Assembly: GCA_032622095.1 (NCBI GenBank)
Contig: CP136066.1
Span: 41,305,835-41,369,834, forward strand
DNA: 64,000 nt
Origin: Siphonodentalium dalli
Lineage: Eukaryota; Mollusca; Scaphopoda; Gadilida; Siphonodentaliidae
Reading direction: 5' to 3'
The notes under the pieces were generated by a model that saw only the letters and a program-made list of their open reading frames with translations, made no database searches and was not told the DNA's origin. The translations under genes were made by a program, and so were the position numbers. Of the stretch, positions 619 through 62,490 are shown piece by piece. Within the stretch, counting starts at the first letter, position 1. The number at the start of each line of letters is the position of its first letter.

Positions 619-654
619 TCATTTCATATCCTCTATTTATGTGTTTTGTTATTT

Positions 655-3600: not shown

Positions 3601-4615
3601 GGTAAATAAAGTCAGAATTCCGAGTTAAAAAGACAGAATTCCGTGTTTATAAAGTCAGAATTCCTAGTTGAAAAGACAGAATTCCGTGTTTATAAAGTCA
3701 GAATTCCGAGTTAAAAAGAGAGAATTCCGAGTTTATAAAGTCAGAATTCCGAGATTATAAAGTCAGAATTCCGAGTTAAAAAGACAGAATTCCGAGTTAA
3801 AAAGACAGAATTCCGAGTTTATAAAGTCAAAATTCCGAGTTTATAAAGTCAAAATTCCGAGTTATAAAGTCAGAATTCTGAGTTAAAAAGACAGAATTCC
3901 GAGTAATAAAGTGAAAATTCCAAGTTTATAAAGTCAAAATTCCGAGTTATAAAGTCATAATTCTGAGTTAAAAAGATTCCAAGTTGAAAAGACAGAATTC
4001 CGAGTTATAAAGTCAAAATTCCGAGTTTATAAAGTCAAAATTCCGAGTTATAAAGTCAGAATTCTGAGTTAAAAAGATTCCAAGTTGAAAAGACAGAATT
4101 CCGAGTTATAAAGTCAAAATTCCGAGTTTATAAAGTCAAAATTCCGAGTTATAAAGTCATAATTCTGAGTTAAAAAGACAGAATTCCGAGTAATAAAGTG
4201 AAAATTCCAAGTTTATAAAGTCAAAATTCCGAGTTATAAAGTCATAATTCTGAGTTAAAAAGATTCCAAGTTGAAAAGACAGAATTCCGAGTTATAAAGT
4301 CAAAATTCCGAGTTTATAAAGTCAAAATTCCGAGTTATAAAGTCAGAATTCTGAGTTAAAAAGATTCCAAGTTGAAAAGACAGAATTCCGAGTTATAAAG
4401 TCAAAATTCCGAGTTTATAAAGTCAAAATTCCGAGTTATAAAGTCAGAATTCTGAGTTAAAAAGATTCCAAGTTGAAAAGACAGAATTCCGTGTTTATAA
4501 AGTCAGAATTCCGAGTTAAAAAGACAGAATTCCGTGTTTATAAAGTCAAAATTCCTAGTTGAAAAGACAGAATTCCGTTTTTATAAAGTCAGAATTCCGA
4601 GTTATAAAGACAGAA
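655..4615. repeat. 4-kb 21-bp satellite with higher-order structure
   Basis: A unit close to TTATAAAGTCAGAATTCCGAG (about 20-21 bp) runs almost without a break for about 4 kb. Variants include TTAAAAAGACAGAATTCC, a GTGTTTATAAAG form and a GATTCCAAGTTG form. GAATTC recurs in a large share of units. The marker AAGATTCCAAGTTG recurs at 2701, 3338, 3973, 4074, 4260, 4361 and 4462. Its spacings of about 636, 635, 101, 186, 101 and 101 bp show higher-order repeats made by block duplication. There is no long ORF, and the array is upstream of the transmembrane exon of the receptor. Confidence 0.95.
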
Positions 4616-5639: not shown

Positions 5640-6600
5640 TAGCTTTGTTGGTTCTTGGAAACCGACCATAATAAAAATATCCATTTCTGTAATCTGAGTG
5701 CATACATGGAAAGCCTTTATATGTATCGACATTAAAATACAATATGTTAAAAACATATGTTAATAATGGCTGTGTTGGTTCTTGGAAACCGACCATAATA
5801 AAAATATCCATTTCTGTAATCTGAGTGCATACACGGAAAGCCAGTATATGTATCAACATTAAAATACAAATATGTTAAAAAAATATGTTAATAGTGACTG
5901 TGTTGGTTCTTGGAAATCGACCATAATAAAAACATCCATTCCTGTAATCTGAATGCATCCAGGAAAAGCCATTATGTGCATGTATAAAACAATACAAAAC
6001 AAATATTTAAAAATTATTATTTGAATAACGTCTGTTGTTATAAACCGACCGTAATCAAAATTTCTATTACTGTCGTTATGTGAATACCAGCGCAGCCATT
6101 ATTAAACAATCTTTTAAATACGAGCAGACACTGATTTCCCCCCCCCCCCCCAAAATTAGCCAAACACCACGAAAATGACAACTTTCGAAAAAAATAACAG
6201 TACTTCTATTCTTTTTTTCTTTACATAATCAACTTGCCCCATTAGCATCATAGCACATTAGCAGGATCACATAAACAGCGCTGGATACATGACTTGCTTA
6301 TTTTACAGATATGTATATTACCACAGCAAGCTCTCTCGCCGTTCTCACACTGACTCTGACGACATCATTCATCGTTATCCAATTAAGAAGGTTAGTGGCT
6401 TTAATAATGGTTGTATTGATTGTTGGAAATCGACCATAATAAAAATATCCATTCCTGAAATCTGAATGCATCAAGGAAAACCATGTTGTATAAACGTTAA
6501 CATACAGATATGTTTAAACATATTTTAATAATGGCTGTGTTGATTGTTGGAAACCGACATTTTAAACACCACGAAAATGACAACTTTAGCTTAGACAGCG
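5640..6600. repeat. About 127-bp diverged tandem repeat
   Basis: The block GTTGGTTCTTGGAAACCGAC followed by CATAATAAAAATATCCATT recurs at about 5647, 5773 and 5901, with a diverged copy near 6030. It recurs again near 6408 and 6537, on the far side of the transmembrane exon. An inverted fragment lies near 6710-6785. The repeats therefore surround the exon at 6309-6390. A 12-base poly-C tract lies at about 6139-6150. Confidence 0.8.
6309..6390 (+). CDS. Receptor guanylate cyclase, transmembrane exon
   Basis: This exon encodes the membrane-spanning segment that anchors the receptor cyclase. It is bounded by a pyrimidine-rich acceptor (CTTGCTTATTTTACAG) and a GTTAGT donor. In the frame with two leading bases (AT, then ATG TAT ATT) it encodes 26 residues. 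These include a hydrophobic run SSLAVLTLTLTTSFIVI followed by QLR. The last two bases, AG, join the first G of the next exon (12326) to make AGG (Arg), so the junction reads QLRR-KKRTEREL. That is a typical stop-transfer and juxtamembrane start. The phase match and the basic cluster are the main evidence; the exon is too short to identify alone. A second open frame (YVYYHSKLSRR...) exists but does not place a membrane helix. The extracellular exons upstream were not found. Confidence 0.65.
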
Positions 6601-8661: not shown

Positions 8662-9745
8662 CAGGTTACTATGAATCGGGCGGCTGGTTACTATGAATCG
8701 GGCGGCTGGTTACTATGAATCGGGCGGCTGGTTACTATGAATCGGGCGGCTGGTTACTACGGATCGGGCGGGCGGCTGGTTACTACGGCTCGGGCGGCTG
8801 GTTACTATGAATCGGGCGGCTGGTTACTACGGATCGGGCGGCTGGTTACTATCGGGCGGCTGGTTACTACGGATCGGGCGGCTGGTTACTATGAATCGAG
8901 CGGCTGGTTACTACGGATCGGGCGGCTGGTTACTATGAATCGGGAGGCTGGTTACTACGAATCGGGCGGCTGGTTACTACGAATCCGGTGTCAGTAAAAA
9001 CTGTTTACCGCAGCTTAAAGGGTCATGTTACTACGAATCGGGCGGCTGGTTACTATGAATCGGGCGGCTGGTTACTATGAATCGGGCGGCTGGTTACTAC
9101 GGATCGGGCGGCTGGTTACTACGGATCGGGCGGCTGGTTACTATGAATCGGGCGGCTGGTTACTATGAATCGGGCGGCTGGTTACTACGAATCGGGCGGC
9201 TGGTTACTATGATTCGGGCGGCTGGTTACTACGAATCGGGCGGCTGGTTACTATGAATCGGGCGGCTGGTTATTATGCATCGGGCGGCTGGTTACTACTA
9301 ATTGGGCAGCTGGTTACTATGAATCGGGCGACTGTTTACTATGAATCGGGCGGCTGGTTACTACGAATCGGGCGGCTGGTTACTACGAATCCGGTGTCAG
9401 TAAAAACTGTTTACCGCAGCTTAAAGGGTCACGTTACTACGAATCGGGCGGCTGGTTACTATGAATCGGGCGGCTGGTTACTATGAATCGGGCGGCTGGT
9501 TACTATGAATCGGGCGGCTGGTTATTACTAATCGGGCGGCTGGTTACTACGAATCGGGCGGCTGGTTACTATGCATCGGGCGGCTGGTTACTACCAATTG
9601 GGCAGCTGCTTACTACAAATCGGTCGGCTGGTTACTACGAATCGGGCTGCTGGTTTTTATGAATCGGGCGGCTGGTTACTACGAATCGGGCGGCTGGTTA
9701 CTACGAATCGGGCGGCTGGTTACTACGAATCGGGCGGCTGGTTCA
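8662..9745. repeat. 22-bp minisatellite
   Basis: The unit GAATCGGGCGGCTGGTTACT plus AT or AC is 22 bp and repeats for about 1.1 kb. It is GC-richer than its surroundings. A non-unit insert containing GTCAGTAAAAACTGTTTACC occurs near 8987 and again near 9392, about 405 bp apart, which shows block duplication. Short Gly/Tyr/Trp-rich open frames are by-products of a 22-bp unit read through three frames. Confidence 0.95.
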
Positions 9746-12325: not shown

Positions 12326-12410
12326 GAAGAAGCGCACGGAGAGAGAGCTGCACGAAGGAATGATCTGGAAGATAACACCCACAGACATACAACCTATGTC
12401 TAAACACCAG
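12326..12410 (+). CDS. Receptor guanylate cyclase, juxtamembrane exon
   Basis: This exon encodes the cytoplasmic segment between the membrane helix and the kinase-homology domain. Starting at 12326 (after CTTTCTATTCCGAAG) it contributes one base to a shared Arg codon, then 28 codons: KKRTERELHEGMIWKITPTD followed by IQPMSKHQ. The pattern basic cluster, EL, W-[KR]-I, DI is typical of this segment in natriuretic-peptide-receptor-type cyclases. It ends CAG|GTAAGA at 12410/12411 in phase 0, which matches the phase-0 start of exon 17532. The 5' border is less certain: the frame is open back to 12252, and AG sites at 12328-12329 or 12280-12281 are alternatives. The last 31 bases and the donor are the founder of the 39-bp array that follows. 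Confidence 0.8.
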
Positions 12411-12568
12411 GTAAGACCTACAGACCTACAACCTATGTCTAAAAACCAGGTAAGACCTACAGACATACAACCTATGTCTAAAAACCAGGTAAGACCTACA
12501 GACATACAACCTATGTCTAAAAACCAGGTAAGACCTACAGACATACAACCTATGTCTAAAAACCAGGT
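12411..12568 (+). promoter_or_regulatory. Five tandem in-frame 5' splice sites
   Basis: CCAG|GTAAGACC occurs at 12411, 12450, 12489, 12528 and 12567, exactly 39 bp apart. The reading frame of the juxtamembrane exon stays open through all five until a TAA at 12585-12587. Use of the second to fifth donor would add one to four copies of a 13-residue segment (VRPTDIQPMSKNQ or a close variant) between the membrane helix and the kinase-homology domain. The sequence shows the sites and the frame; use of any site other than the first is inference. Confidence 0.6.
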
Positions 12569-12906
12569 AAGACCTACAGACATATAACCTATGTCTAAAA
12601 ACCAGGTAAGACCTACAGACATACAACCTATGTCTAAAAACCAGGTAAGACCTACAGACATACAACCTATGTCTAAAAACCAGGTAACCCCTACAGACAT
12701 ACAACCTATGTCTAAAAACCAGGTAACACCTACATATTTACTACCTATAATGTCTAAAACCCAGGTAACACCTACATATTTACTACCTATAATGTCTAAA
12801 TCCCATGTAACACCTACATATTTACTACATATAATGTCCAAAAATCAGGTAACACCTACAGACATACAAACTATAATGTCTAAAAGCCAGGTAACACCTT
12901 CAGATG

Positions 12907-13096
12907 TTGCTTAACTATTTTGATGTATGTGTTAATCTTATGCCATCATCTCTTGTGTGTAGGCCTATGATGTATGCATAGATGTATTTGTGTATCATGT
13001 GTAATAGAGGGCATGGTACTCGTTGAAATGTAGGCGCTCTGGGCCATCTGGGATAAAGCGCTATATAAATGTTATTTATTATTATTATTATTATTA
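12907..13096 (+). mobile_element. SINE-like insert with (TTA)n tail
   Basis: The insert interrupts the 39-bp array. It ends in GGATAAAGCGCTATATAAAT, an A/T run and a (TTA)n tract, the 3' end shared by many animal SINEs and LINEs. A TAACACC at both edges (near 12894 and 13095) may be a target-site duplication, but the array itself contains TAACACC, so this is uncertain. No coding sequence. Confidence 0.7.
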
Positions 13097-13435
13097 ACAC
13101 CGACAGACAGACAACCTATATGTCTAAAACCAGATAACACATACAGACATACTACCTATAATGACTAAACAGGTAACACTTACAGACATAAAACCTATAT
13201 AATGTCTAAACCTGGTAACACCTAATTATATACAACCTATAATGTCTAAACCTGGTAACACCTACATATATACAACCTATAATGTCTAAACACCAGGTAA
13301 CACCTACATATATACAACCTATAATGTATAAAGACCAGGTAACACCTACATATATACAACCTATAATGTTCAACAAACCAGGTAACACTAACAGGTATAC
13401 AACCTATAATGTCTAAATACCAAATCGAATATCCG

Positions 13436-15866: not shown

Positions 15867-16023
15867 ACTGATGTTGATTTTTCAATAATAGTGTGATTAT
15901 AATCTTTGGTATCTATATGCCTAGTTTATATATCATTTAGTTTTGAAATTTATTTACATATCAGAAAACAATGTTAAATTGTTTTGTCTATGTTGCTCTA
16001 ACTGAATGACTGAATTCCTGAAG
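15867..16023. other. Short unique spacer
   Basis: Non-repetitive AT-rich intron sequence between the 45-bp array and a MITE. Nothing was recognised. Confidence 0.4.
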
Positions 16024-16402
16024 GGCCCTGTGCCAATGCATTCTCTCATATAATTATGCGAGTCGACCATAGGTCGCCTCGCATATATAAGAGAATGCAT
16101 TGGCTTAACACATTAAAAATTATAAAATTGTTAAAGAATGTAAGAAAAATGGTAAAAAGTGTTAAATTTGTTTTTTTTAGGCCAATGCATTCTCTTATAT
16201 ATGCGAGGCGACCTATGGTCGACTCGCATATATAAGATAATGCATTGGCACAGGGCATAACTGTAACTATCACAATGTGGTCAAGGAGCCGGTTCCAATG
16301 ATATCCATATTTGTATGGTTCTATTGAGACAGACCGAATATATTTTAGGCTGTTGAAGCTTTATTTGGCCGGTTTTGGCCGCTTTGTTGGGTAAAGGGTT
16401 AA
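16024..16402 (-). mobile_element. TTAA-type MITE with twin palindromes, one end missing
   Basis: Two palindromes of about 70 bp are built from GCCAATGCATTCTCTTATAT and its complement around GGTCGACTCGC/GCGAGTCGACC. They flank an A/T-rich core. To the right are GTTACAGTTATG-type flanks and a terminal GTTGGGTAAAGGGTTAA. Compared with the copies at 17138, 21350 and 37706 it is inverted, and its left terminal repeat is absent (GAATTCCTGAAGGGCCCTG instead). Short open frames over it are not genes. Confidence 0.85.
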
Positions 16403-17137: not shown

Positions 17138-17514
17138 TTAACCCTTTACCCAACAAAACGGCCAAAACCGGCCAAATAAAGCTTCAACAGACTAAAATAT
17201 CTTCGGTCTGTCTCAATAGAACCATACAAATATGGATATCATTGGAACCGGCTCCTTGACCACATTGTGATTGTTACAGTTATGCCCTGTGCCAATGCAT
17301 TCTCTTATATATGCGAGTCGACCATAGGTCGCCTCGCATATATAAGAGAATGCATTGGCCTAAAAAAAAAAATTCTACATTCTTTGACAATTTTATCATT
17401 TTTAATATGTGTTAAGCCTATGCATTCTCTTATATATGCGAGGCGACCTATGGTCGACTCGCATATATAAGAGAATGCGTTGGCACAGGGCCGTTCTGTT
17501 GGTTAAAGGGTTAA
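17138..17514 (+). mobile_element. TTAA-type MITE (piggyBac-like), full copy beside an exon
   Basis: The element starts TTAACCCTTTACCCAACAAA and ends ...CTGTTGGTTAAAGGGTTAA. TTAA stands at both ends and the terminal repeats begin CCC, as in piggyBac-type elements. The two inner palindromes are the same as in the other copies. Its right end is 17 bp before the acceptor of the exon at 17532, so it supplies sequence in the branch-point region. No transposase is present. Confidence 0.85.
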
Positions 17515-17531: not shown

Positions 17532-17696
17532 CTAAGCTATAAAAGTCTCCGCTCCTCACGGATGTTCACTTCCGAGCAGTCACTTGAGCACGCGTCGGAC
17601 AGCTTAGGGCTATACAAAGGAATCCAAGTCTTCGTCAAAAAGACCAGCGTCACTGACTTCACCCTGGGCCGTGACGTATTGATGGACCTCAAAGCG
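17532..17696 (+). CDS. Receptor guanylate cyclase, kinase-homology exon 1
   Basis: The exon encodes 55 residues in phase 0-0, from LSYKSLRSSRMFTSE to VLMDLKA. It covers the start of the kinase-homology domain. GLYKGIQVFVKKTSV lines up with the strand carrying the ATP-site lysine in natriuretic-peptide receptors, and DFTLGRDVLMDLKA with the following helix. In receptor cyclases this domain binds ATP and represses the cyclase; it is not an active kinase. The acceptor is TATTTTCGTTCCAG and the donor GCG|GTAACG. The acceptor lies 17 bp downstream of a MITE. The upstream exon ends in phase 0 (12410) and the next exon starts in phase 0 (19211). Family assignment is firm because the following exons continue the domain in order. 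Confidence 0.88.
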
Positions 17697-21349: not shown

Positions 21350-21749
21350 TTAACCCTTTACCCAACAAACCGGCCAAAACCGGCCAAATAAAGCTTCAAC
21401 AGCCTAAAATATCTTCGGTCTGTCTCAATAGAACCATACACATATGGATATCATTGGAACCGGCTCCTTGACCACATTGTGATAGTTACAGTTATGCCCT
21501 GTGCCAATGCATTCTCTTATATATGCGAGTCGACCATAGGTCGCCTCGCATATATAAGAGAATGCATTGGCCTAAAAAAAATCTTTTTTTGACACTTTTT
21601 ACCATTTTTTCTTACATTCTTTAACAATTTTATAATTTTTAATGTGTTAAGCCAATGCATTCTCTTATATATGCGAGGCGACCTATGGTCGACTCGCATA
21701 TATAAGAGAATGCATTGGCACAGGGCCCTTCTGTTGGGTAAAGGGTTAA
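21350..21749 (+). mobile_element. TTAA-type MITE (piggyBac-like), full copy
   Basis: TTAACCCTTTACCCAACAAA at the left and CTGTTGGGTAAAGGGTTAA at the right, with TTAA at both ends. Same inner palindromes and A/T core as the copy at 17138. About 400 bp, no coding capacity. Confidence 0.87.
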
Positions 21750-22169: not shown

Positions 22170-22241
22170 GATGTTCTTGAAAACGACAATATTCAGCTTG
22201 ATTGGATGTTCAAGTTCTCCTTCTTGTCCGATGTTGTACAG
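22170..22241 (+). CDS. Receptor guanylate cyclase, kinase-homology exon 3
   Basis: The exon encodes 24 residues in phase 0-0: DVLENDNIQLDWMFKFSFLS, then DVVQ. The DVLENDNIQLDWMF pattern is the receptor-cyclase sequence D-[IV]-L-E-N-[ED]-x-I-x-LDW-M-F, directly after the hinge, and the next helix leads into the G-M-x-[YF]-LH segment. The acceptor is CACTATTGCAG and the donor CAG|GTGAGTAG. About 150 bp downstream the exon end and donor occur again in diverged form (CTTGTGCAG|GTGAGTAG at 22390). Short exon, but the family match is strong. Confidence 0.92.
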
Positions 22242-22375
22242 GTGAGTAGAGCAGGCTACCGCGTGTATTTGTAGTCCAGAATAGGGTTATAATTCATGGA
22301 ATATCTGGTAGCTGCAGATGAACAGAACACGTCAACACATACAATTGTAGTCCAGAATAGAGTTATTATTCTTGG

Positions 22376-22460
22376 CAGATCTTGTGCAGGTGAGTAGAAC
22401 GGGTTACCATGTGTACGTTTAGTCCAGAATATAGTTATCCATCTTGGCAGATATCATGCA
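22376..22460 (+). repeat. Duplicated donor border of exon 22170-22241
   Basis: TTCTTGGCAGATCTTGTGCA followed by GGTGAGTAGAACGGGTTACC copies the exon end TTCTTGTCCGATGTTGTACA and its GGTGAGTAGAGCAGGCTACC. A TAGTCCAGAATAG block follows both donors. A third, donor-less remnant lies near 22443-22462 (CTTGGCAGATATCATGCAG). The GT at 22390 is a credible decoy donor. Reading on from the true exon meets an in-frame TAG before reaching it. Confidence 0.75.
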
Positions 22461-37705: not shown

Positions 37706-38070
37706 TTAACCCTTTACCCAACAGAACGCCCAGAAACGCCCTAACAGCCTAAATTATCTTCGGTCTGTCTCAATAAAACCATGGAAATATGGGTATCATT
37801 GGAACCGGCTCATTGAGCACATTGTGATAGTTACAGTTATGCCCTGTGCCAATGCATTCTCTTATATATGCGAGTCGACCATAGGTCGCCTCGCATATAT
37901 AAGAGAATGCATTGGCCTAAAAAAAACTTTTTTTTAACACTTTTTACCATTTTTTCTTTAATATGTGTTAAGCCAATGCATTCTCTTATATATGCGAGGC
38001 GACCTATGGTCGACTCGCATATATAAGAGAATGCATTGGCACAGGGCCGTTCTGTTGGGTAAAGGGTTAA
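37706..38070 (+). mobile_element. TTAA-type MITE (piggyBac-like), full copy
   Basis: TTAACCCTTTACCCAACAGA at the left and TCTGTTGGGTAAAGGGTTAA at the right with TTAA at both ends. It carries the same twin palindromes as the copies at 17138 and 21350. The spacer between palindromes is shorter. Its terminal inverted repeats are the best conserved of the four copies. Confidence 0.88.
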
Positions 38071-38163
38071 ATAGGACATGCACATACGGTATGAGATATG
38101 TTTTGTAAGACCAGAGACTCCCGCATTATATTTCATTTATTTACAACCTTGTAACCTTGTAAG

Positions 38164-45844: not shown

Positions 45845-46106
45845 ATTCGACTTTTGTCAGACAGGGAGGCGACAGGGATATAATGAATTTATTCGATCTT
45901 ATCTTTAATCTGTTTGTCAGACAGGGATGAATCATGGATATAATTACCTTATTCGATGTGTTCTTTAGTCTGTGACTGTCAAACAGGGAGGGATTATGGA
46001 TATAACGACCTTATTCGATGGTATCTTTATTATGTTTCTGTCAGAAAGGGAGGTATAAATGATATAATGAACTAATTTGATATTATCTTTACTCTGTTTC
46101 TGTCAG
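45845..46106 (+). repeat. Tandem copies of a 3' splice site, 60-62 bp apart
   Basis: The block TTT(C)TGTCAG[AG]A[AC]AGGGAGG followed by TGGATATAAT and TTATTCGAT recurs with AG at 45860, 45920 and 46044 and the true acceptor at 46106. A mutated copy (TGTCAAACAGG) is near 45982. Each unit repeats the pyrimidine tract, AG and the first 25-30 bases of the helix exon. At least three of the four upstream copies keep an AG after a T-rich tract. The copy at 46044, if used, meets TAA in frame after nine codons. Confidence 0.8.
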
Positions 46107-46247
46107 AAAGGGAGGTATAATGGATATAATGGTGCAGAAGTTAGAGAAGTACGCCAGTAACCTTGAAGATATCGTGGCACAGAGGACAATGGAACTTACA
46201 GATGAGAAGAGAAAGACTGATAATCTGCTCAATCGAATGCTACCACC
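46107..46247 (+). CDS. Receptor guanylate cyclase, signalling-helix (dimerisation) exon
   Basis: The exon is 141 bases, phase 2 in and phase 2 out. One A completes Gln, then KGGIMDIMVQKLEKYASNLE, DIVAQRTMELTDEKRKTDNL and LNRMLPP. This is the helix linking kinase-homology and cyclase domains. The pattern [ML]-E-x-YA-x-NLE-x-[IL]-V-x-x-RT-x-x-L-x-x-E-K-[KR]-[KR]-T-[DE]-x-LL-x-x-MLP is diagnostic of membrane guanylate cyclases and mediates dimer signalling. The donor is CCACC|GTAAGTAT at 46248; the next exon supplies G to complete Pro. Without splicing here TAA follows in frame. Both borders of this exon have been multiplied in the flanking introns. Confidence 0.96.
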
Positions 46248-46442: not shown

Positions 46443-46620
46443 AGTATATCATTGTATAATATTCAATAATGCAGCCGACATCCCAACACTAGCACCGTAA
46501 GTATAATACTCAATAATGCAGCTGACATCCCAATGCTAGCACCGTAAGTATAATATTCAAAAATGAGTCTGACTTTGTAGGGCTAGCACCGTAAGTATAA
46601 TATTCAATAATGCAGCCGAC

Positions 46621-49600
46621 ATTCCAATGATAGCACCGTAAGTATATTATTCAATAATGAATCCGACATCCCAATGCTACCACTGTAAGCATAATATTCA
46701 ATAATGAAGCCAACATCCTAATGCTAGCGCTGTAAGTATAATATTCAATAATGAAGCTGACATCACAATACTAGGGCCATAAGTATATTATTCAATAATG
46801 ATGCCAACATCCCAATGCTAGCGACGTCAGTATAATATTCAATAATGAAGCCGACATCACAGTACTAGGGCCATAAGTATATTATTCAATAATTAAGCCA
46901 ACAAATCAATGCTAGCGCCGTAAGTATCATATTCAATAATAAAGCCGACATCACAATACTAGCGCCATAAGTATAATATTCAATAATGAAGCCGATATCG
47001 CAATACTAGCGCCATTAGTATAATATTCAATAATGAAGCCGACATCACAATACTAGCACCATAAGTATATTATTCAATAATGCAGCCAACATCCCAATGC
47101 TAGCGCCATAAGTAAAATATTCAATAATGAAGCCGATATCCCAACGCTAGCACTGTAAGTATAATATTCAATAATGAAGCCGATATCCCAACGCTAGCAC
47201 CGTAAGTATAATATTCAATAATGCAGCCGTCATCCCAACACTAGCACCGTAAGTTTAATATTCAATAATGAAGCCGATATCCCAACGCTAGCACCGTAAG
47301 TATAATATTCAATAATGAAGCCGATATCCCAACCCTGGCACCGTAAGTATAATACTCAATAATGCAGCCGACATCCCAACACTAGCACCGTAAGTATAAT
47401 ATTCAATAATGAAGCCGATATCCCAACGCTAGCACCGTAAGTATAATATTCAATAATGAAGCCGATATCCCAACACTGGCACCGTAAGTATAATACTCAA
47501 TAATGCAGCCGACATCCCAACACTAGCACCGTAAGTATAATATTGAATAATGAAGCCGATATCCCGACACTAGCACCGTAAGTATAATATTAAATAATGC
47601 AGCCAACATCCCAACACTGGCACCGTGAGTATAATATTCAATAATGCAGCCGACATCCCAACACTGGCACCGTAAGTATGATATTAAATAATGCAGCCGA
47701 CATCCCAACACTAGCACCGTAAGTATAATATTAAATAATGCAACCGACATCCCAACACTGGCACCGTAAGAATAATATTCAATAATGCAGCCGACATCCC
47801 AACACTGGCACCGTATGTATAATATTCAATAATGCAGCGGACATCCCAACACTGGCACCGTAAGTATAATATTCAATAATGCAGCCGACATCCCAACACT
47901 GGCACCGTAAGTATAATATTAAATAATGCAGCCGACATCCCAACACTGGCACCGTAAGTATAATATTCAATAATGCAGCTGACATCCCAACACTGGCACC
48001 GTAAGTATAATATTCAATAATGCAGCCGACATCCCAACACTAGCACCGTAAGTATAATATTAAATAATGCAGCCGACATTCCAACACTGGCACCGTAAGT
48101 ATAATATTCAATAATACAGCCGACATCCCAACACTGGCACCGTAAGTATAATATTCAATAATGCAGCCGTCATCCGAACACTGGCACCCTAAGTATAATA
48201 TTCAATAATGAAGCGACATCCCAACACTGGCACCGTTGGTATAATATTCAATAATGCAGCGACATCCCAACACTACCACCCTAAGTATAATATTCAATAA
48301 TGCAGCCAACTTCCGAATTCTAGCACGGTAAGTATACTATTCAATAATGAAACCGATATCCCAACACTATCGCCATAAGTATAATATTCAATAATACAGC
48401 CGACATCCCAACACTGGCACCGTAAGTATAATATTCAATAATGCAGCCGACATCCGAACACTGGCACCCTAAGTATAATATTCAATAATGAAGCGACATC
48501 CCAACACTGGCACCGTTGGTATAATATTCAATAATGCACCGACATCCCAACACTACCACCCTAAGTATAATATTCAATAATGCAGCCAACTTCCGAATTC
48601 TAGCACGGTAAGTATACTATTCAATAATGAAACCGATATCCCAACACTATCGCCGTAAGTATAATATTCAATAATGCAGCTGACATTCCAATGATAGCAC
48701 CGTAAGTATATTATTCAATAATGAATCCGACATCCCAATGCTACCACTGTAAGCATAATATTCAATAATGAAGCCAACATCCCAATGCTAGCGCTGTAAG
48801 CATAATATTCAATAATGAAGCCAACATCCTAATGCTAGCGCTGTAAGTATAATATTCAATAATGAAGCTGACATCACAATACTAGGGCCATAAGTATATT
48901 ATTCAATAATGATGCCAACATCCCAATGCTAGCGACGTCAGTATAATATTCAATAATGAAGCCGACATCACAGTACTAGGGCCATAAGTATATTATTCAA
49001 TAATTAAGCCAACAAATCAATGCTAGCGCCGTAAGTATCATATTCAATAATAAAGCCGACATCACAATACTAGCGCCATAAGTATAATATTCAATAATGA
49101 AGCCGATATCGCAATACTAGCGCCATTAGTATAATATTCAATAATGAAGCCGACATCACAATACTAGCACCATAAGTATATTATTCAATAATGCAGCCAA
49201 CATCCCAATGCTAGCGCCATAAGTAAAATATTCAATAATGAAGCCGATATCCCAACGCTAGCACTGTAAGTATAATATTCAATAATGAAGCCGATATCCC
49301 AACGCTAGCACCGTAAGTATAATATTCAATAATGCAGCCGTCATCCCAACACTAGCACCGTAAGTTTAATATTCAATAATGAAGCCGATATCCCAACGCT
49401 AGCACCGTAAGTATAATATTCAATAATGAAGCCGATATCCCAACCCTGGCACCGTAAGTATAATACTCAATAATGCAGCCGACATCCCAACACTAGCACC
49501 GTAAGTATAATATTCAATAATGAAGCCGATATCCCAACGCTAGCACCGTAAGTATAATATTCAATAATGAAGCCGATATCCCAACACTGGCACCGTAAGT

Positions 49601-50790
49601 ATAATACTCAATAATGCAGCCGACATCCCAACACTAGCACCGTAAGTATAATATTGAATAATGAAGCCGATATCCCGACACTAGCACCGTAAGTATAATA
49701 TTAAATAATGCAGCCAACATCCCAACACTGGCACCGTGAGTATAATATTCAATAATGCAGCCGACATCCCAACACTGGCACCGTAAGTATGATATTAAAT
49801 AATGCAGCCGACATCCCAACACTAGCACCGTAAGTATAATATTAAATAATGCAACCGACATCCCAACACTGGCACCGTAAGAATAATATTCAATAATGCA
49901 GCCGACATCCCAACACTGGCACCGTATGTATAATATTCAATAATGCAGCGGACATCCCAACACTGGCACCGTAAGTATAATATTCAATAATGCAGCCGAC
50001 ATCCCAACACTGGCACCGTAAGTATAATATTAAATAATGCAGCCGACATCCCAACACTGGCACCGTAAGTATAATATTCAATAATGCAGCTGACATCCCA
50101 ACACTGGCACCGTAAGTATAATATTCAATAATGCAGCCGACATCCCAACACTAGCACCGTAAGTATAATATTAAATAAAGCAGCCGACATTCCAACACTG
50201 GCACCGTAAGTATAATATTCAATAATACAGCCGACATCCCAACACTGGCACCGTAAGTATAATATTCAATAATGCAGCCGACATCCGAACACTGGCACCC
50301 TAAGTATAATATTCAATAATGAAGCGACATCCCAACACTGGCACCGTTGGTATAATATTCAATAATGCAGCGACATCCCAACACTACCACCCTAAGTATA
50401 ATATTCAATAATGCAGCCAACTTCCGAATTCTAGCACGGTAAGTATACTATTCAATAATGAAACCGATATCCCAACACTATCGCCATAAGTATAATATTC
50501 AATAATACAGCCGACATCCCAACACTGGCACCGTAAGTATAATATTCAATAATGCAGCCGACATCCGAACACTGGCACCCTAAGTATAATATTCAATAAT
50601 GAAGCGACATCCCAACACTGGCACCGTTGGTATAATATTCAATAATGCACCGACATCCCAACACTACCACCCTAAGTATAATATTCAATAATGCAGCCAA
50701 CTTCCGAATTCTAGCACGGTAAGTATACTATTCAATAATGAAACCGATATCCCAACACTATCGCCGTAAGTATAATATTCAATAATGCAG
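46621..50790. repeat. Segmental duplication inside the array, offset about 2.06-2.11 kb
   Basis: The unit order and private variants of 46621-48680 recur from about 48685 on. The offset is about 2064 bp at the left and 2111 bp further right; the 47-bp difference equals one extra unit near 48780-48827. For example the variant runs at 47523-47985 and 49634-50096 correspond. Confidence 0.85.
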
Positions 50791-50975
50791 CTGACATTCC
50801 AATGATAGCACCGTAAGTATATTATTCAATAATGAATCCGACATCCCAATGCTACCACTGTAAGCATAATATTCAATAATGAAGCCAACATCCCAATGCT
50901 AGCGCTGTAAGTATAATATTCAATAATGAAGCTGACATCACAATACTAGGGCCATAAGTATATTATTCAATAATG

Positions 50976-51515
50976 ATAATAATAATAATAATAATAATAT
51001 TTATATAGCGCCTATCCCCCGCAAGGGGCCCTAAGCGCTTTACACATTATATAAATACACAAGAAATGAACATGGAAAATAATCAATAGATATGTGGAAT
51101 TATATATAATCAGATTTTGTTAGTTTTCTTTGTGTCGGGGTAGCGTCGTCGGAATATGTGAGTTTTTAAAGCAGATCGAAAATCGGTTAGCAAGCAAGAT
51201 TGTCGCATTTCATTTGGTAGAGAGTTCCAAATGTCGGGACAGGCTACAGAGAAAGCTCTGTCGCCGACGGTCAAAAGATTTGCACCTTGAGGGCAGAGAA
51301 GGGACGATTCACCAGAACGAAGTGTTCGCCGGGGAGTGTATGGATATATCAGACTGTTAATATATTCGGGATTCAGAGACAAACATCCGACGGAAACCAA
51401 ATGTTGCTATTTTGAATTGTATCTGATCTTTGATAGGTAGCCAGTGAAGGTCGGCGTGCATGGTTGTTACGCTACAGCCTTTCCTTCTTCGGAGTACAAT
51501 TCTGGCGGCGGTGTC
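50976..51515 (-). pseudogene. LINE reverse-transcriptase 3' end, 5'-truncated (copy 1)
   Basis: On the minus strand the remnant encodes the C-terminal tail of a CR1/L2-type non-LTR retrotransposon polyprotein. It includes LHWLPIKDQIQFKI, PEYINSLIYPYTPRRTLRS, GDRAFSVACPDIWNSLPNEM and a final LKTHIFRRRYP. Such tails follow the reverse-transcriptase domain. The 3' end reads AAAGCGCTTAGGGCCCC... and runs into an (ATT)n tail on the minus strand (ATAATAATA on the +). The array resumes on both sides (AATGAT before, CCAACATCCC after). No complete ORF. Relative to copy 2 it has a 5-base deletion (GGGATTC for GGGAAGGGATTC) and a GCAAGCAAG difference. Confidence 0.85.
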
Positions 51516-53432
51516 CAACATCCCAATGCTAGCGCCGTCAGTATAATATTCAATAATGAAGCCGACATCACAATACTAGGGCCATAAGTATATTATTCAA
51601 TAATTAAGCCAACATCCCAATGTTAGCGCTGTAAGTATCATATTCAATAATGAAGCCGACATCACAATACTAGCGCCATAAGTACAATATTCAATAATGA
51701 AGCCGATATCACAATACTAGCGCCATTAGTATAATATTCAATAATGAAGCCGACATCACAATACTAGCACCATAAGTATATTATTCAATAATGCAGCCAA
51801 CATCCCAATGCTAGCGCCATAAGTAAAATATTCAATAATGAAGCCAACATCACAATACTAGCGCCATTAGTATAATATTCAATAATGAAGCCGATATCCC
51901 AACGCTAGCACTGTAAGTATAATATTCAATAATGAAGCCGATATCCCAACGCTAGCACCGTAAGTATAATATTCAATAATGCAGCCGACATCCCAACACT
52001 AGCACCGTAAGTTTAATATTCAATAATGAAGCCGATATTCCAACGCTAGCACCGTAAGTATAATATTCAATTTGAAGCCGATATCCCAACGCTAGCACCG
52101 TAAGTATAATATTCAATATTGAAGCCGATATCCCAACACTGGCACCGTAAGTATACTACTCAATAATACAGCCGACATCCCAACACTAGCACCGTAAGTA
52201 TAATATTGATTAATGAAGCCGATATCCCGACACTAGCACCGTAAGTATAATATTAAATAATGCAGCCAACATCCCAACACTGGCACCGTGAGTATAATAT
52301 TCAATAATGCAGCCGATATCCCGACACTAGCACTGTAAGTATAATATTCAATAATGAAGCCGACATCACAATACTAGCACCATAAGTATATATTCAATAA
52401 TGCAGCCAACATCACAATACTAGCGCCATTAGTATAATATTCAATAATGAAGCCGATATCCCAACGCTAGCACTGTAAGTATAATATTCAATAATGAAGC
52501 CGATATCCCAACACTGGCACCGTAAGTATAATATTCAATAATGCAGCTGACATCCCAACACTGGCACCGTAAGTATAATATTCAATAATGCAGCCGACAT
52601 CCCAACACTAGCACCGTAAGTATAATATTAAATAATGCAGCCGACATTCCAACACTGGCACCGTAAGTATAATATTCAATAATACAGCCGACATCCCAAC
52701 ACTGGCACCGTAAGTATAATATTCAATAATGCAGCCGACATCCGAACACTGGCACCCTAAGTATAATATTCAATAATGTAGCGACATCCCAACACTGGCA
52801 CCGTTGGTATAATATTCAATAATGCAGCGACATCCCAACACTACCACCCTAAGTATAATATTCAATAATGCAGCCAACTTCCGAATTCTAGCACGGTAAG
52901 TATACTATTCACTAATGAAACCGATATCCCAACACTATCGCCATAAGTATAATATTCAATAATACAGCCGACATCCCAACACTGGCACCGTAAGTATAAT
53001 ATTCAATAATGCAGCCGACATCCGAACACTGGCACCCTAAGTATAATATTCAATAATGAAGCGACATCCCAACACTGGCACCGTTGGTATAATATTCAAT
53101 AATGCACCGACATCCCAACACTACCACCCTAAGTATAATATTCAATAATGCAGCCAACTTCCGAATTCTAGCACGGTAAGTATACTATTCAATAATGAAA
53201 CCGATATCCCAACACTATCGCCGTAAGTATAATATTCAATAATGCAGCTGACATTCCAATGATAGCACCGTAAGTATATTATTCAATAATGAATCCGACA
53301 TCCCAATGCTACCACTGTAAGCATAATATTCAATAATGAAGCCAACATCCCAATGCTAGCGCTGTAAGTATAATATTCAATAATGAAGCTGACATCACAA
53401 TACTAGGGCCATAAGTATATTATTCAATAATG

Positions 53433-53976
53433 ATAATAATAATAATAATAATAATATTTATATAGCGCCTATCCCCCGCAAGGGGCCCTAAGCGCTTTAC
53501 ACATTATATAAATACACAAGAAATGAACATGGAAAATAATCAATAGATATGTGGAATTATATATAATCAGATTTTGTTAGTTTTCTTTGTGTCGGGGTAG
53601 CGTTGTCGGAATATGTGAGTTTTTAAAGCAGATCGAAAATCGGTTAGCAACAAGATTGTCGCATTTCATTTGGTAGAGAGTTCCAAATGTCGGGACAGGC
53701 TACAGAGAAAGCTCTGTCGCCGACGGTCAAAAGATTTGCACCTTGAGGGCAGAGAAGGGACGATTCACCAGAACGAAGTGTTCGCCGGGGAGTGTATGGA
53801 TATATCAGACTGTTAATATATTCGGGAAGGGATTCAGAGACAAACATCCGACGGAAACCAAATGTTGCTATTTTGAATTGTATCTGATCTTTGATAGGTA
53901 GCCAGTGAAGGTCGGCGTGCATGGTTCTTACGCTACAGCCTTTCCTTCTTCGGAGTACAATTCTGGCGGCGGTGTC
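53433..53976 (-). pseudogene. LINE reverse-transcriptase 3' end (copy 2, by segmental duplication)
   Basis: Almost identical to 50976-51515, with the same junctions to the 47-bp array on both sides, offset about 2457 bp. It was therefore copied together with flanking array units and did not insert independently. The minus-strand frame is longer (53982-53644) because the 5-base indel keeps it open: LDTAARIVLRRRKGCS, then LHWLPIKDQIQFKI, and on to NEMRQSC. Its first Met comes from the flanking minisatellite. Not a functional gene. Confidence 0.87.
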
Positions 53977-55179
53977 CAACATCCCAATGCTAGCGCCGTC
54001 AGTATAATATTCAATAATGAAGCCGACATCACAATACTAGGGCCATAAGTATATTATTCAATAATTAAGCCAACATCCCAATGTTAGCGCCGTAAGTATC
54101 ATATTCAATAATGAAGCCGACATCACAATACTAGCGCCATAAGTACAATATTCAATAATGAAGCCGATATCACAATAATAGCGCCATTAGTATAATATTC
54201 AATAATGAAGCCGACATCACAATACTAGCACCATAAGTATATTATTCAATAATGCAGCCAACATCCCAATGGTAGCGCCATAAGTAAAATATTCAATAAT
54301 GAAGCCAACATCACAATACTAGCGCCATTATTATAATATTCAATAATGAAGCCGATATCCCAACGCTAGCACTGTAAGTATAATATTCAATAATGAAGCC
54401 GATATCCCAACGTTAGCACCGTAAGTATAATATTCAATAATGCAGCCGACATCCCTACACTAGCACCGTAAGTTTAATATTCAATAATGAAGCCGATATC
54501 CCAACGCTAGCACCGTAAGTATAATATTCAATATTGAAGCCGATATCCCAACACTGGCACCGTAAGTATACTACTCAATAATGCAGCCGACATCCCAACA
54601 CTAGCACCGTAAGTATAATATTGATTAATGAAGCCGATATCCCGACACTAGCACCGTAAGTATAATATTAAATAATGCAGCCAACATCCCAACACTGGCA
54701 CCGTGAGTATAATATTCAATAATGCAGCCGATATCCCGACACTAGCACTGTAAGTATAATATTCAATAATGAAGCCGACATCACAATACTAGCACCATAA
54801 GTATATATTCAATAATGCAGCCAACATCACAATACTAGCGCCATTAGTATAATATTCAATAATGAAGCCGATATCCCAACGCTAGCACTGTAAGTATAAT
54901 ATTCAATAATGAAGCCGATATCCCAACGCTAGCACCGTAAATATAATATTCAATAATGCAGCCGACATCCCAACACTAGCACCGAAAGTTTAATATTCAA
55001 TAATGAAGCCGATATCCCAACGCTAGCACCGTAAGTATAATATTCAATAATGAAGCCGATATCCCAACGCTAGCACCGTAAGTATAATATTCAATATTGA
55101 AGCCGATATCCCAACACTGGCACCGTAAGTATATTACTCAATAATGCAGCCGACATCCCAACACTAGCACCGTAAGTAT

Positions 55180-58100
55180 AATATTGATTAATGAAGCCGA
55201 TATCCCGACACTAGCACCGTAAGTATAATATTAAATAATGCAGCCAACATCCCAACACTGGCACCGTGAGTATAATATTCAATAATGCAGCCGACATCCC
55301 AACACTGGCACCGTAAGTATGATATTAAATAATGCAACCGACATCCCAACACTGGCACCGTAAGAATAATATTCAATAATGCAGCCGACATCCCAACACT
55401 GGCAACGTAAGTATAATATTCAATAATGCAGCGGACATCCCAACACTAGGACCATAAGTATAATATTAAATAATGCAGCCGACATCCCAACACTGGCACC
55501 GTAAGTATAATATTCAATAATGGAGCCGACATCCCAACACTGGCACCGTAAGTATAATATTAAATAATGCAGCCGACATCCCAACACTGGCACCGTAAGT
55601 ATAATATTCAATAATGCAGCTGACATCCCAACACTGGCACCGTAAGTATAATATTCAATAATGCAGCCGACATCCCAACACTAGCACCGTAAGTATAATA
55701 TTAAATAATGCAGCCGACATTCCAACACTGGCACCATAAGTATAATATTCAATAATACAGCCGACATCCCAATACTGGCACTGTAAGTATAATATTCAAT
55801 AATGCAGCCGACATCCGAACACTGGCACCCTAAGTATAATATTCAATAATGAAGCGACATCCCAACACTGGCACCGTTGGTATAATAGTCAATAATGCAC
55901 CGACATCCCAACACTACCACCCTAAGTATAATATTCAATAATGCAGCCAACTTCCGAATTCTAGCACGGTAAGTATACTATTCAATAATGAAACCGATAT
56001 CCCAACACTATCGCCGTAAGTATAATATTCAATAATGATGCCAACATCCCAATGCTAGCGCCGTAAGTATAATATTCAATAATGAAGCCGACATCACAAT
56101 ACTAGGGCCATAAGTATATTATTCAATAATGAAGCCAACATCCCATTGCTCGCGCCGTAAGTATAATATTCAGTAATGAAGCCGACATCACAATACTAGT
56201 GCCATTAGTATAATATTCAATAATGAAGCCGACATCACAATACTAGCACCATAAGTATATATTCAATAATGCAGCCAACATCCCAATGCTAGCGCCATAG
56301 GTATAATATTCAATAATGAAGCTGACATCACAATACTAGCGCCATAATTATAATATTCAATAATGAAGCCGATATCACAATACTAGTGCCATTAGTATAA
56401 TATTCAATAATGAAGCCGACATCACAATACTAGCACCATAAGTATATATTCAATAATGCAGCCAACATCCCAATGCTAGCGCCATAGGTATAATATTCAA
56501 TAATGAAGCTGACATCACAATACTAGCGCCATAAGTATAATATTCAATAATGAAGCCGATATCCCAACGCTAGCACTGTAAGTATAATATTCAATAATGA
56601 AGCAGATAGCCCAATGCTAGCACCGTAAGTATAATATTCAATAATGCCAACGACATCCCAACACAGGCACCGTAAGTATAATATTCAATAATGTAGCTGA
56701 CACCCCAACACTGGCACCATAAGTATAATATTCAATAATGCAGCCGACATCCCAACACTAGCACTGTAAGTATAATATTAAATAATGCAGCCGACAATCC
56801 AACACTGGCACCATAAGTAAAATATTCAATAATACAGCCGACATCCCAACACTGGCACCGTAAGTATAATATTCAATAATGCAGCCGACAACCCAACACT
56901 GGCACCGTAAGTATAATATTCAATAATGCAGTCGACATCCGAACACTGGCACCCTAAGTATAATATTCAATAATGAAGCTGATATCCCAACACTGGCACA
57001 GTTGGTATAATATTCAATAATGCACCGACATCCCAACACTACCACCCTAAGTATAATATTCAATAATGAAACCGATATCCCAACACTATCGCTGTAAGTA
57101 TAATATTCAATAATGATGCCAACATCCCAGTGCTAGCGCCGTAAGTATAATATTCAATAATGAAGCCGACATCACAATACTAGGGCCATAAGTATATTAT
57201 TCAATAATGAAGCCAACATCCCATTGCTAGCGCCGTAAGTATAATATTCAGTAATGAAGCCGACATCACAATACTAGTGCCATAAGTATAATATTCAATA
57301 ATGAAGCCGATATCACAATACTAGTGCCATTAGTATAATATTCAATAATGAAGCCGACATCACAATACTAGCACCATAAGTATATATTCAATAATGCAGC
57401 CGATATCCCAACGCTAGCACTGTAAGTATAATATTCAATAATGAAGCAGATATCCCAATGCTAGCACCGTAAGTATAATATTCAATAATGCCGACGACAT
57501 CCCAACATTAGCACCGTAAGTTTAATATTCAATAATGAAGCTGATATCCCAATGCTAGCACCGTAAGTATAATATTCAATAATGAAGCCGATATCCCAAA
57601 ACTGGCACCATAAGTATAATACTCAATAATGAAGCCGACATCCCAACACTAGCACCGTAAGTATATATTGAATAATGAAGCCGATATCCCAACGCTAGCA
57701 CCGTAAGTATAATATTCAATAATGAAGCCGATATCCCAACACTGGCACCGTAAGTATAATACTCAATAATGCAGCCGACATCCCAACACTAGCACCGTAA
57801 GTATAATATTAAATAATGCAGCCAACATCCCAACACTGGCCCCGTAAGTATAATATTAAATAATTCAGCCGACATCCGAACACTGGCACCGTAAGTATAA
57901 TATTCAATAATGCAGCCGACATCCCAACACTGGCACCGTAAGTATAATATTCAAAAATGCAGCCGACATCCCAACACTAGCACCGTAAGTATAATAATAA
58001 ATAATGCAGCCGACATCCCAACACTGGCACCGTAAGTATAATATTCAATAATGCAGCCGACATTCCAACACTGGCACCGTAAGTATAATATTCAATAATA

Positions 58101-61100
58101 CAGCCGACATCCCAACACTGGCACCGTAAGTATAATATTCAATAATGCAGCCGACATCCCAACACTGGCACCGTAAGTATAATATTCAATAATGCTGCCG
58201 ACATCCGAACACTGGCACCGTAAGTGTAATATTCAATAATGGAGCCGACGTCCCAACACTGGCACCGTAAGTATAATATTCAATAATGTACCGACATCCC
58301 AACACTACCACCCTAAGTATAATATTCAATAATGAAGCCGATATCCCAACGCTAGCACCGTAAGTATAATATTCAATATTGAAGCCGATATCCCAACACT
58401 GGCACCGTAAGTATATTACTCAATAATGCAGCCGACATCCCAACACTAGCACCGTAAGTATAATATTGATTAATGAAGCCGATATCCCGACACTAGCACC
58501 GTAAGTATAATATTAAATAATGCAGCCAACATCCCAACACTGGCACCGTGAGTATAATATTCAATAATGCAGCCGACATCCCAACACTGGCACCGTAAGT
58601 ATGATATTAAATAATGCAACCGACATCCCAACACTGGCACCGTAAGAATAATATTCAATAATGCAGCCGACATCCCAACACTGGCAACGTAAGTATAATA
58701 TTCAATAATGCAGCGGACATCCCAACACTAGGACCATAAGTATAATATTAAATAATGCAGCCGACATCCCAACACTGGCACCGTAAGTATAATATTCAAT
58801 AATGGAGCCGACATCCCAACACTGGCACCGTAAGTATAATATTAAATAATGCAGCCGACATCCCAACACTGGTACCGTAAGTATAATATTCAATAATGCA
58901 GCTGACATCCCAACACTGGCACCGTAAGTATAATATTCAATAATGCAGCCGACATCCCAACACTAGCACCGTAAGTATAATATTAAATAATGCAGCCGAC
59001 ATTCCAACACTGGCACCATAAGTATAATATTCAATAATACAGCCGACATCCCAATACTGGCACTGTAAGTATAATATTCAATAATGCAGCCGACATCCGA
59101 ACACTGGCACCCTAAGTATAATATTCAATAATGAAGCGACATCCCAACACTGGCACCGTTGGTATAATAGTCAATAATGCACCGACATCCCAACACTACC
59201 ACCCTAAGTATAATATTCAATAATGCAGCCAACTTCCGAATTCTAGCACGGTAAGTATACTATTCAATAATGAAACCGATATCCCAACACTATCGCCGTA
59301 AGTATAATATTCAATAATGATGCCAACATCCCAATGCTAGCGCCGTAAGTATAATATTCAATAATGAAGCCGACATCACAATACTAGGGCCATAAGTATA
59401 TTATTCAATAATGAAGCCAACATCCCATTGCTAGCGCCGTAAGTATAATATTCAGTAATGAAGCCGACATCACAATACTAGTGCCATTAGTATAATATTC
59501 AATAATGAAGCCGACATCACAATACTAGCACCATAAGTATATATTCAATAATGCAGCCAACATCCCAATGCTAGCGCCATAGGTATAATATTCAATAATG
59601 AAGCTGACATCACAATACTAGCGCCATAATTATAATATTCAATAATGAAGCCGATATCACAATACTAGTGCCATTAGTATAATATTCAATAATGAAGCCG
59701 ACATCACAATACTAGCACCATAAGTATATATTCAATAATGCAGCCAACATCCCAATGCTAGCGCCATAGGTATAATATTCAATAATGAAGCTGACATCAC
59801 AATACTAGCGCCATAAGTATAATATTCAATAATGAAGCCGATATCCCAACGCTAGCACTGTAAGTATAATATTCAATAATGAAGCAGATAGCCCAATGCT
59901 AGCACCGTAAGTATAATATTCAATAATGCCAACGACATCCCAACACAGGCACCGTAAGTATAATATTCAATAATGTAGCTGACACCCCAACACTGGCACC
60001 ATAAGTATAATATTCAATAATGCAGCCGACATCCCAACACTAGCACTGTAAGTATAATATTAAATAATGCAGCCGACAATCCAACACTGGCACCATAAGT
60101 AAAATATTCAATAATACAGCCGACATCCCAACACTGGCACCGTAAGTATAATATTCAATAATGCAGCCGACAACCCAACACTGGCACCGTAAGTATAATA
60201 TTCAATAATGCAGTCGACATCCGAACACTGGCACCCTAAGTATAATATTCAATAATGAAGCTGATATCCCAACACTGGCACAGTTGGTATAATATTCAAT
60301 AATGCACCGACATCCCAACACTACCACCCTAAGTATAATATTCAATAATGAAACCGATATCCCAACACTATCGCTGTAAGTATAATATTCAATAATGATG
60401 CCAACATCCCAGTGCTAGCGCCGTAAGTATAATATTCAATAATGAAGCCGACATCACAATACTAGGGCCATAAGTATATTATTCAATAATGAAGCCAACA
60501 TCCCATTGCTAGCGCCGTAAGTATAATATTCAGTAATGAAGCCGACATCACAATACTAGTGCCATAAGTATAATATTCAATAATGAAGCCGATATCACAA
60601 TACTAGTGCCATTAGTATAATATTCAATAATGAAGCCGACATCACAATACTAGCACCATAAGTATATATTCAATAATGCAGCCGATATCCCAACGCTAGC
60701 ACTGTAAGTATAATATTCAATAATGAAGCAGATATCCCAATGCTAGCACCGTAAGTATAATATTCAATAATGCCGACGACATCCCAACATTAGCACCGTA
60801 AGTTTAATATTCAATAATGAAGCTGATATCCCAATGCTAGCACCGTAAGTATAATATTCAATAATGAAGCCGATATCCCAAAACTGGCACCATAAGTATA
60901 ATACTCAATAATGAAGCCGACATCCCAACACTAGCACCGTAAGTATATATTGAATAATGAAGCCGATATCCCAACGCTAGCACCGTAAGTATAATATTCA
61001 ATAATGAAGCCGATATCCCAACACTGGCACCGTAAGTATAATACTCAATAATGCAGCCGACATCCCAACACTAGCACCGTAAGTATAATATTAAATAATG

Positions 61101-61620
61101 CAGCCAACATCCCAACACTGGCCCCGTAAGTATAATATTAAATAATTCAGCCGACATCCGAACACTGGCACCGTAAGTATAATATTCAATAATGCAGCCG
61201 ACATCCCAACACTGGCACCGTAAGTATAATATTCAAAAATGCAGCCGACATCCCAACACTAGCACCGTAAGTATAATAATAAATAATGCAGCCGACATCC
61301 CAACACTGGCACCGTAAGTATAATATTCAATAATGCAGCCGACATTCCAACACTGGCACCGTAAGTATAATATTCAATAATACAGCCGACATCCCAACAC
61401 TGGCACCGTAAGTATAATATTCAATAATGCAGCCGACATCCCAACACTGGCACCGTAAGTATAATATTCAATAATGCTGCCGACATCCGAACACTGGCAC
61501 CGTAAGTGTAATATTCAATAATGGAGCCGACGTCCCAACACTGGCACCGTAAGTATAATATTCAATAATGTACCGACATCCCAACACTACCACCCTAAGT
61601 ATAATATTCAATAATGCAGC
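55180..61620. repeat. Segmental duplication inside the array, offset about 3.28 kb
   Basis: 55188-55626 and 58470-58908 carry the same ordered variants (for example GGCAACGTAAG, GGACCATAAG, AATGGAGCC), offset 3282 bp. The match extends from about 55030 (GCTAGCACCGTAAG before AATATTGAAGCC) to about 61600. The two copies are nearly identical: GGTACC for GGCACC near 58872 and GCTAGC for GCTCGC near 59428 are among the few differences. Confidence 0.85.
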
Positions 61621-62490
61621 CGACATCCGAATGCAATCACCGTAAGTATAATATTCAATAATGAAGCCGATATCCCAACACTACCACCGTAAGTATAATA
61701 TTCAATAACGCAGCCGACATCCCAACACTAGCACCGTAAATATAATACTCAATAATGCAGCTGACATCCCAATGCTAGCACCATAAGTATAATATTCAAA
61801 AATGATTCTGACATCGTAGGGCTAGCTCCGTAAGTATAATATTCAATAATGCAGCCGACATTCCAATGATAGCACCGTAAGTATAATATTCAATAATGAA
61901 TCCGAAATCCCAATGCTACCACTGTAAGCATAATATTCAATAATGAAGCCAACATCCCAATGCTAGCACCGTAAGTATAATATTCAATAATGAAGCCGAC
62001 GTCACAATACTAGCGCCATAAGTATATTATTCAATAATGAAGCCAACATCCCAATGCTAGCGCCATAAGTATAATATTCAATAATGAAGCCAACATCCCA
62101 ATGCTAGCACCATAAGTATAATATTCAATAATGAAGCCGACGTCACAATACTAGCGCCATAAGTATATTATTCAATAATGAAGCCAACATCCCAATGCTA
62201 GCGCCATAAGTATAATATTCAATAATGAAGCCGACATCACAATACTAGCGCCATAAGTATATTATTCAATAATGAAGCCAACATCCCAATGCTAGCGCCG
62301 TATGTATAATATTCAACCACTCTAAGAATAATATTCAATAATGAAGCTGACATCACAATACAATACTAAATATAATATTCAATAATGAAGCTGACATCAC
62401 AATACAATATTAAATATAATATTCAATAATGAAGCTGACATCACAATACAATACTAAATATAATATTCAATAATGATGATGTCAAATAAA

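Follow-up and report, generated by a model that had tools for sequence, protein, structure and literature searches.

Locus and gene structure

The window, the whole stretch of DNA that was analysed, comprises 64,000 nucleotides of Siphonodentalium dalli (assembly GCA_032622095.1, contig CP136066.1, positions 41,305,835 to 41,369,834), and unprefixed positions are counted from its first letter. A membrane guanylate cyclase gene runs through it on the (+) strand. An ANF-receptor exon (C6:41239325, +), a transmembrane exon, kinase-homology exons and cyclase (PF00211) exons in line (C6:41368558-41373220, +) keep the membrane guanylate cyclase order of ANF receptor, transmembrane helix, kinase homology and cyclase on one strand. 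The exons of the window gene were delimited by comparison with a paralogue and are listed with their arrays in Table 1.

A protein joined by hand from four exons matched NPR1 (E 1.8e-7), in keeping with the preliminary description, which had assigned the exon at 12326 to the juxtamembrane region of a receptor cyclase. The NPR1 alignment pairs the end of this exon, WKITPTDIQPMSKHQ, with WRVRWEDVEPSSLERH, a juxtamembrane element, and the exon end is therefore read as ancestral (the founder) and the intron copies as derived. A Pfam search with the juxtamembrane and first kinase-homology ORFs returned nothing above the cut-offs, the best match being a sub-threshold lysostaphin domain. The transmembrane exon is conserved in the paralogue and has no array at either edge, and the first kinase-homology exon has 95% identical residues in the paralogue (61-residue query). 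As read from the printed sequences, the pre-transmembrane, transmembrane and juxtamembrane exons end in phases 1, 2 and 0, and the juxtamembrane acceptor (TTCCGAAG/G at 12326) and the first kinase-homology exon are phase-compatible.

Table 1. Exons and exon-edge arrays of the window gene (window coordinates unless prefixed; a slash marks the splice junction)
Feature	Position	Strand	Remarks
67-bp donor-side array, 39 copies	L004:5726-8347 (window coordinates about -4274 to -1653)		At the pre-transmembrane exon end
Transmembrane exon (DMYITTASSLAVLTLTLTTSFIVIQLR, phase 2 end)	6309..6390	+	TTTTACAG acceptor, AAGAAG/GTTAGT donor
Juxtamembrane exon	12326..12410	+	Exonic array unit formed by the last 39 bases (ITPTDIQPMSKHQ)
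Four 39-bp intronic units, open in the frame of the juxtamembrane exon	12411..12566	+	Start GTAAGA, end CCAG
Further 39-bp units	12567..12722	+	First unit with in-frame TAA at 12585
Older 39-42 bp units	12723..12904	+	GTAACA replaces GTAAGA
Decayed array continuation, units of about 41-42 bp	13095..13422	+	Lies past unrelated sequence
First kinase-homology exon	17532..17696	+	Splice partner of the juxtamembrane exon
Kinase-homology exon (22170-22241) with 72-bp donor-side array	22170..22452	+	TRF 22221-22452; middle copy without donor
62-bp acceptor-side array	45855..46131	+	TGTCAG/AAAGGGAGG repeated, into exon 46107-46247; also in paralogue
Linker/cyclase exon	46107..46247	+	An array derived from each edge
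47-bp array, about 337 units	46454..62316	+	Resembles end of exon 46107-46247 plus donor (CACC/GTAAGTATAATATTCAATAATG)

The 39-bp array

The last 39 bases of the juxtamembrane exon and its donor are repeated in tandem across the exon/intron boundary and on into the intron (TRF 12373-12904, score 718, 13.3 copies, 91% matches), and the units bear copies of the splice signal. The CCAG/GTAAGA donors noted earlier at 12411, 12450, 12489, 12528 and 12567 were all confirmed, and two more were found at 12606 and 12645, making seven with the same sequence from -4 to +10; they are followed by the variant donors GTAACC at 12684 and GTAACA from 12723 on. Read from 12327, the frame gives KKRTERELHEGMIWKITPTDIQPMSKHQ, next VRPTDLQPMSKNQ, three times VRPTDIQPMSKNQ, and VRPTDI before the TAA at 12585-12587, the point to which it had been said to stay open. 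This TAA, which lies in unit 5 and is one base change from the common unit, is the single stop in the frame of the array up to about 12911. Five donors thus stand in an open frame and could, as had been proposed, add 0, 13, 26, 39 or 52 residues; they had been counted as five in-frame copies of the donor, but are the original and four copies. The units are open because every one of them copies coding sequence in the same phase, and selection is not required for this.

Intronic units 1-5 depart from the common unit in two places, one change turning I to L and the other Q to a stop, and the first four units hold one difference in 156 bases. Values of pN and pS were 0.028 and 0.015 for the window gene (pN/pS 1.85, 8 units) and 0.114 and 0.069 for the paralogue (pN/pS 1.65, 14 units), so that the intronic units of both genes gave no sign of protein-level selection in what is, with so few differences, a weak test.

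The tail-to-tail paralogue

The paralogue lies tail to tail with the window gene on the opposite strand at about C6:41404854-41539500 (-), and the pair formed with C6:41239325-41373220 (+) is an inverted duplication of a membrane guanylate cyclase. The paralogue's 39-bp array lies about 146 kb from that of the window gene and points the other way. Since the 39-bp, 47-bp and 62-bp arrays are common to both paralogues, they probably predate the gene duplication. The 67-bp array differs in copy number between the two (39 by TRF versus about 2 by eye), and the one exact string used to search for the 72-bp array was absent from the paralogue.

GTAAGA donors of the paralogue stand in frame at 0, 39, 78 and 117 bases downstream; its intronic unit 4 has 31 bases (8 short) and a stop, and the frame is lost past the fourth donor. 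The exon of the paralogue ends in ITPTDIQPMCKTQ, and this end matches intronic unit 1 of the same gene at 33 of 33 compared bases, agreement falling through units 1 to 3 as 33, 32 and 28 (of 33). Between the two genes the exon ends match at 29/33 bases, and the exon end of the window gene agrees with its own units at 30 or 31/33 and with three paralogue units at 32/33. Homogenisation inside the array is accordingly visible in one of the two genes, the paralogue, and the same 33-base comparison gave no recent sharing between exon end and own units in the window gene. From the identity of exon end and unit 1, the coding end and the array of the paralogue appear to share changes, the coding end and the nearest intronic unit probably copying each other, in either direction. 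The fall-off with distance fits outward growth from the exon.

Other arrays in the same gene

Among ten exons of the window gene, four (the juxtamembrane exon included) have donor-side arrays and one has an acceptor-side array; nine donors and nine acceptors were scanned, with one acceptor position uncertain and some edges 1-3 bases off, and the array of the pre-transmembrane exon was judged separately, outside the nine-donor scan. That exon ends at window coordinate -4222 (L004) and is followed by 39 copies of the 67-bp unit, ACACAG/GTGAGA. The 47-bp array, nearly 16 kb long, begins after a gap of about 200 bp from its exon, and the donor G is missing in about a third of its units, perhaps by CpG decay.

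Minisatellites are abundant throughout the window, with 55 TRF rows, some of them overlapping. The array at 29139-32942 (23-bp unit, 165 copies, 99% match) is open in all three forward frames and looks like a recent expansion, and large high-copy intronic arrays lie at 653-4615 (21/43-bp) and 8664-9743 (22-bp). A dispersed element with ATGCATTCTCTTATATATGCGAGG or similar occurs at about 16014-16391, 17180-17502, 21392-21746, 23894-23987 and 37817-38105 and has many copies in both paralogues.

Survey of other exons and donor words

A survey was made of 120 other exons, 80 with PF00211 (cyclase) and 40 with PF00225 (kinesin). The cyclase set was 80 of 147 PF00211 rows, taken in the order of the list. 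Excluded from it were open frames of >=250 residues, both index genes, exon C5:113742031 (which adjoins a fetched exon) and, for near-identical loci, the second copies (C8:113.49M, C4:220.76M). The kinesin set was the first 40 of 123 PF00225 rows with open frames under 250. Each exon was read with 450 bp per side, search windows being equal on both sides (median open-frame extension 42 left and 36 right), and arrays were classed by eye from self-matches.

Clear donor-side arrays were found at 9/120 exons and a clear acceptor-side array at 1/120 (two-sided sign test, p = 0.02), the kinesin set alone proving nothing. Seven of the donor-side cases were cyclase exons (L014, L028, L047, L052, L059, L063, L065; 7/80) and two were kinesin exons (L115, L118; 2/40), the nine sitting in about eight genes, with L047 and L059 in one. 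The acceptor-side case was a cyclase exon (L081, 1/80), and the kinesin count was 0/40. Ambiguous cases on the donor side (L011, L034, L108) and the acceptor side (L100) were left uncounted. Candidates were dropped as dispersed or intronic elements (L015, L044, L010, L024, L104, L116, L127), as an array past the donor (L054), as CAT-rich simple sequence (L066), as exon-internal copies (L023, L109) or as weak (L080). On these figures, exon-edge arrays appear to be a common feature of the splice donors of this genome.

Four cyclase genes (L028, L059, L063, L065) have donor-side arrays at or near a homologous exon end (RIG-H-G), with differing units. Because the units differ, the sequences suggest independent births at one place.

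Counted genome-wide as overlapping, non-independent matches, with large arrays dominating among the matches listed, CAGGTAAG (three words 28-53 bases apart) gave 3218 matches versus 910 for its backwards-read control, and AAGGTGAG in tandem gave 1186 versus 245, or 3.5 and 4.8 times over control for the two donor words. The one acceptor word compared, TTTTACAG in tandem, gave 1027 versus 1097 in its control. At most, the word counts give the direction of a donor bias.

Frame of the inserts

The distance from donor 1 to the next donor-like copy in 13 distinct arrays was 39, 133, 148, 249, 45, 27, 72, 50, 38, 53, 79, 60 and 88 bases, where the 39 stands once for the window gene and its paralogue together, the 133 belongs to the 67-bp unit array (the intervening copy being under the cut) and L118 has an uncertain donor and a certain unit. 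Multiples of three made up 6/13 intervals versus 4.3 expected, and four of those six have stops in every phase. The insert is both open and a multiple of three in 2/13 arrays only, the 39-bp array and L028 (27), and selection for in-frame units was rejected on these counts. In the other 11/13 arrays the second donor would bring a frameshift or a stop, and the in-frame unit of the 39-bp array is therefore probably luck.

Interpretation of the 39-bp array

The 39-bp array is best explained, with a probability of roughly 80%, as a donor-side "mirage", a minisatellite that straddles the boundary of an exon and an intron, whose first donor is normally used. The observations behind this explanation are the array itself, its resemblance to the exon end, the array of the paralogue, the shared bases and the lack of visible coding constraint. 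From them we infer an origin at the exon end, where a segment reaching from the juxtamembrane exon into the intron behind it would have been duplicated in tandem, and an array that would have grown by DNA-level turnover, either slippage or unequal exchange. Splicing would normally take the 5'-most donor, by which the exon keeps its usual form, and later copies would be just intron; the array would be tolerated, as neutral intron sequence, because of that choice. Predominant use of the first donor is expected mainly because use of a later donor would break the protein in most of the genes with arrays. Further evidence is the presence in the same gene of donor-side arrays of 67, 72 and 47 bp and an acceptor-side array of 62 bp. 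Against the mirage explanation stand the seven identical donor sites, which in themselves offer nothing to favour the first, the uniformity of the first four units, which recent expansion or coding use would both explain, and the excess of multiples of three among the 13 intervals.

Mirages have been described in amphioxus for Adh3, the globins BflGb6 and BflGb9, troponin C and PGBD5, and are described there as leaving normal splicing undisturbed (PMC3087553, PMC3902484). Compared with the amphioxus cases as given there, the arrays in S. dalli reach 39 and about 337 copies and lie mostly at donors, several exons of one gene are affected, and the 39-bp array turns out to be open and in frame. 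The 39-bp array most likely belongs to this known kind, and nothing seen shows its extra copies to be used as protein. Tandem repeats at exon-intron boundaries in human segmental duplications account for 27 intron modifications, 66% of them also with a repeat-retaining transcript (PMC2812944), a frequency that counts against the mirage explanation. Those repeats are likewise minisatellites placed where exon meets intron in recent paralogues, and differ in coming with transcript support. In the Rogers model, as outlined in PMC3087553, introns are gained when AG/GT proto-splice sites are duplicated in tandem; the duplicated segments here likewise bear splice signals, but the intron pre-exists and grows, with no new intron position seen. 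No count of boundary arrays at donors versus acceptors was found in the open-licence literature as far as its text was available, which is weak evidence of absence.

Alternative use of the five donors, with linkers of +13, 26, 39 or 52 residues tuning receptor signalling, was the proposal of the preliminary description and is improbable. The donors are identical and strong, the frame is open across four units, and the paralogue also has four in-frame GTAAGA donors; the NPR1 alignment has gaps on this protein's side at that place, so an insert there is not implausible. A minisatellite in human IFI6 (6-16, G1P3) reportedly, by the title of the study (Nucleic Acids Res 1995, 23:1854), provides multiple splice donor sites; the likeness lies in repeat units that supply donors, and the difference in that multiple-donor use here is a possibility read from sequence. 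Linker tuning is opposed by the lack of visible coding constraint (in a weak test), by the nonsense in unit 5 and by unit 4 of the paralogue, which is 8 bases short, holds a stop and loses the frame. Sister arrays that shift the frame or meet stops, as the next donor does in 11/13 arrays, also speak against it, as the gene tolerates such arrays, and so do the amphioxus cases, which are described as splicing normally (PMC3087553). Some +13n isoforms via later donors are possible.

Far less probable still is that the array acts as RNA or DNA, for example as a cluster of U1 sites that strengthens the exon or guards the long intron from premature polyadenylation. The genome-wide excess of tandem donor words over control, with none for the acceptor word, favours such a role, and the donor word as a whole shows slightly better preservation than the remainder of the unit in the two arrays compared, 47-bp (0.904 vs 0.877, rank 15 of 47) and 67-bp (0.932 vs 0.884, rank 21 of 67). 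However, the essential GT is not what these two arrays preserve, being intact in 220/337 units of the first (40th of 47 dinucleotides) and 27/39 units of the second (rank 47 of 67). An independent intronic minisatellite ending at the exon by chance, or an assembly artefact, might be suggested by the 55 TRF rows of the window, but is scarcely credible given units that agree with the coding exon end and keep its phase, an exon end that matches an NPR1 protein element, an oppositely oriented array in the paralogue about 146 kb away and nine clear cases at other exon ends.

Donor bias and its significance

Acceptor choice tends toward the first AG past the branch point. Acceptor-side duplications would therefore tend to lengthen the exon and hence be removed, and donor-side duplications would be harmless if the first donor is taken; a splicing filter of this kind, in which the first donor wins, would give a donor bias. 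Mutational bias at donors is a rival to the splicing filter as its source. It is also conceivable, though doubtful, that in this lineage splice donors act as hot spots at which minisatellites arise, new arrays starting time and again at the 3' ends of exons, growing the introns outward from there and sometimes returning altered sequence to the coding end. If so, open units of a multiple of three would offer a protein linker ladder dependent on copy number, as in the 39-bp array.

Boundary minisatellites of the mirage type are presented in PMC3087553 and PMC3902484 as features of a few amphioxus genes, and here 9/120 exons have them at the donor, in two unrelated gene families (cyclase and kinesin). 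Of the leads from this analysis, the genome-wide donor bias is the most interesting. If it holds, it would offer an example, open to test, of introns that lengthen at their 5' ends subject to a splicing filter, with the coding exon end drawn into repeat turnover.
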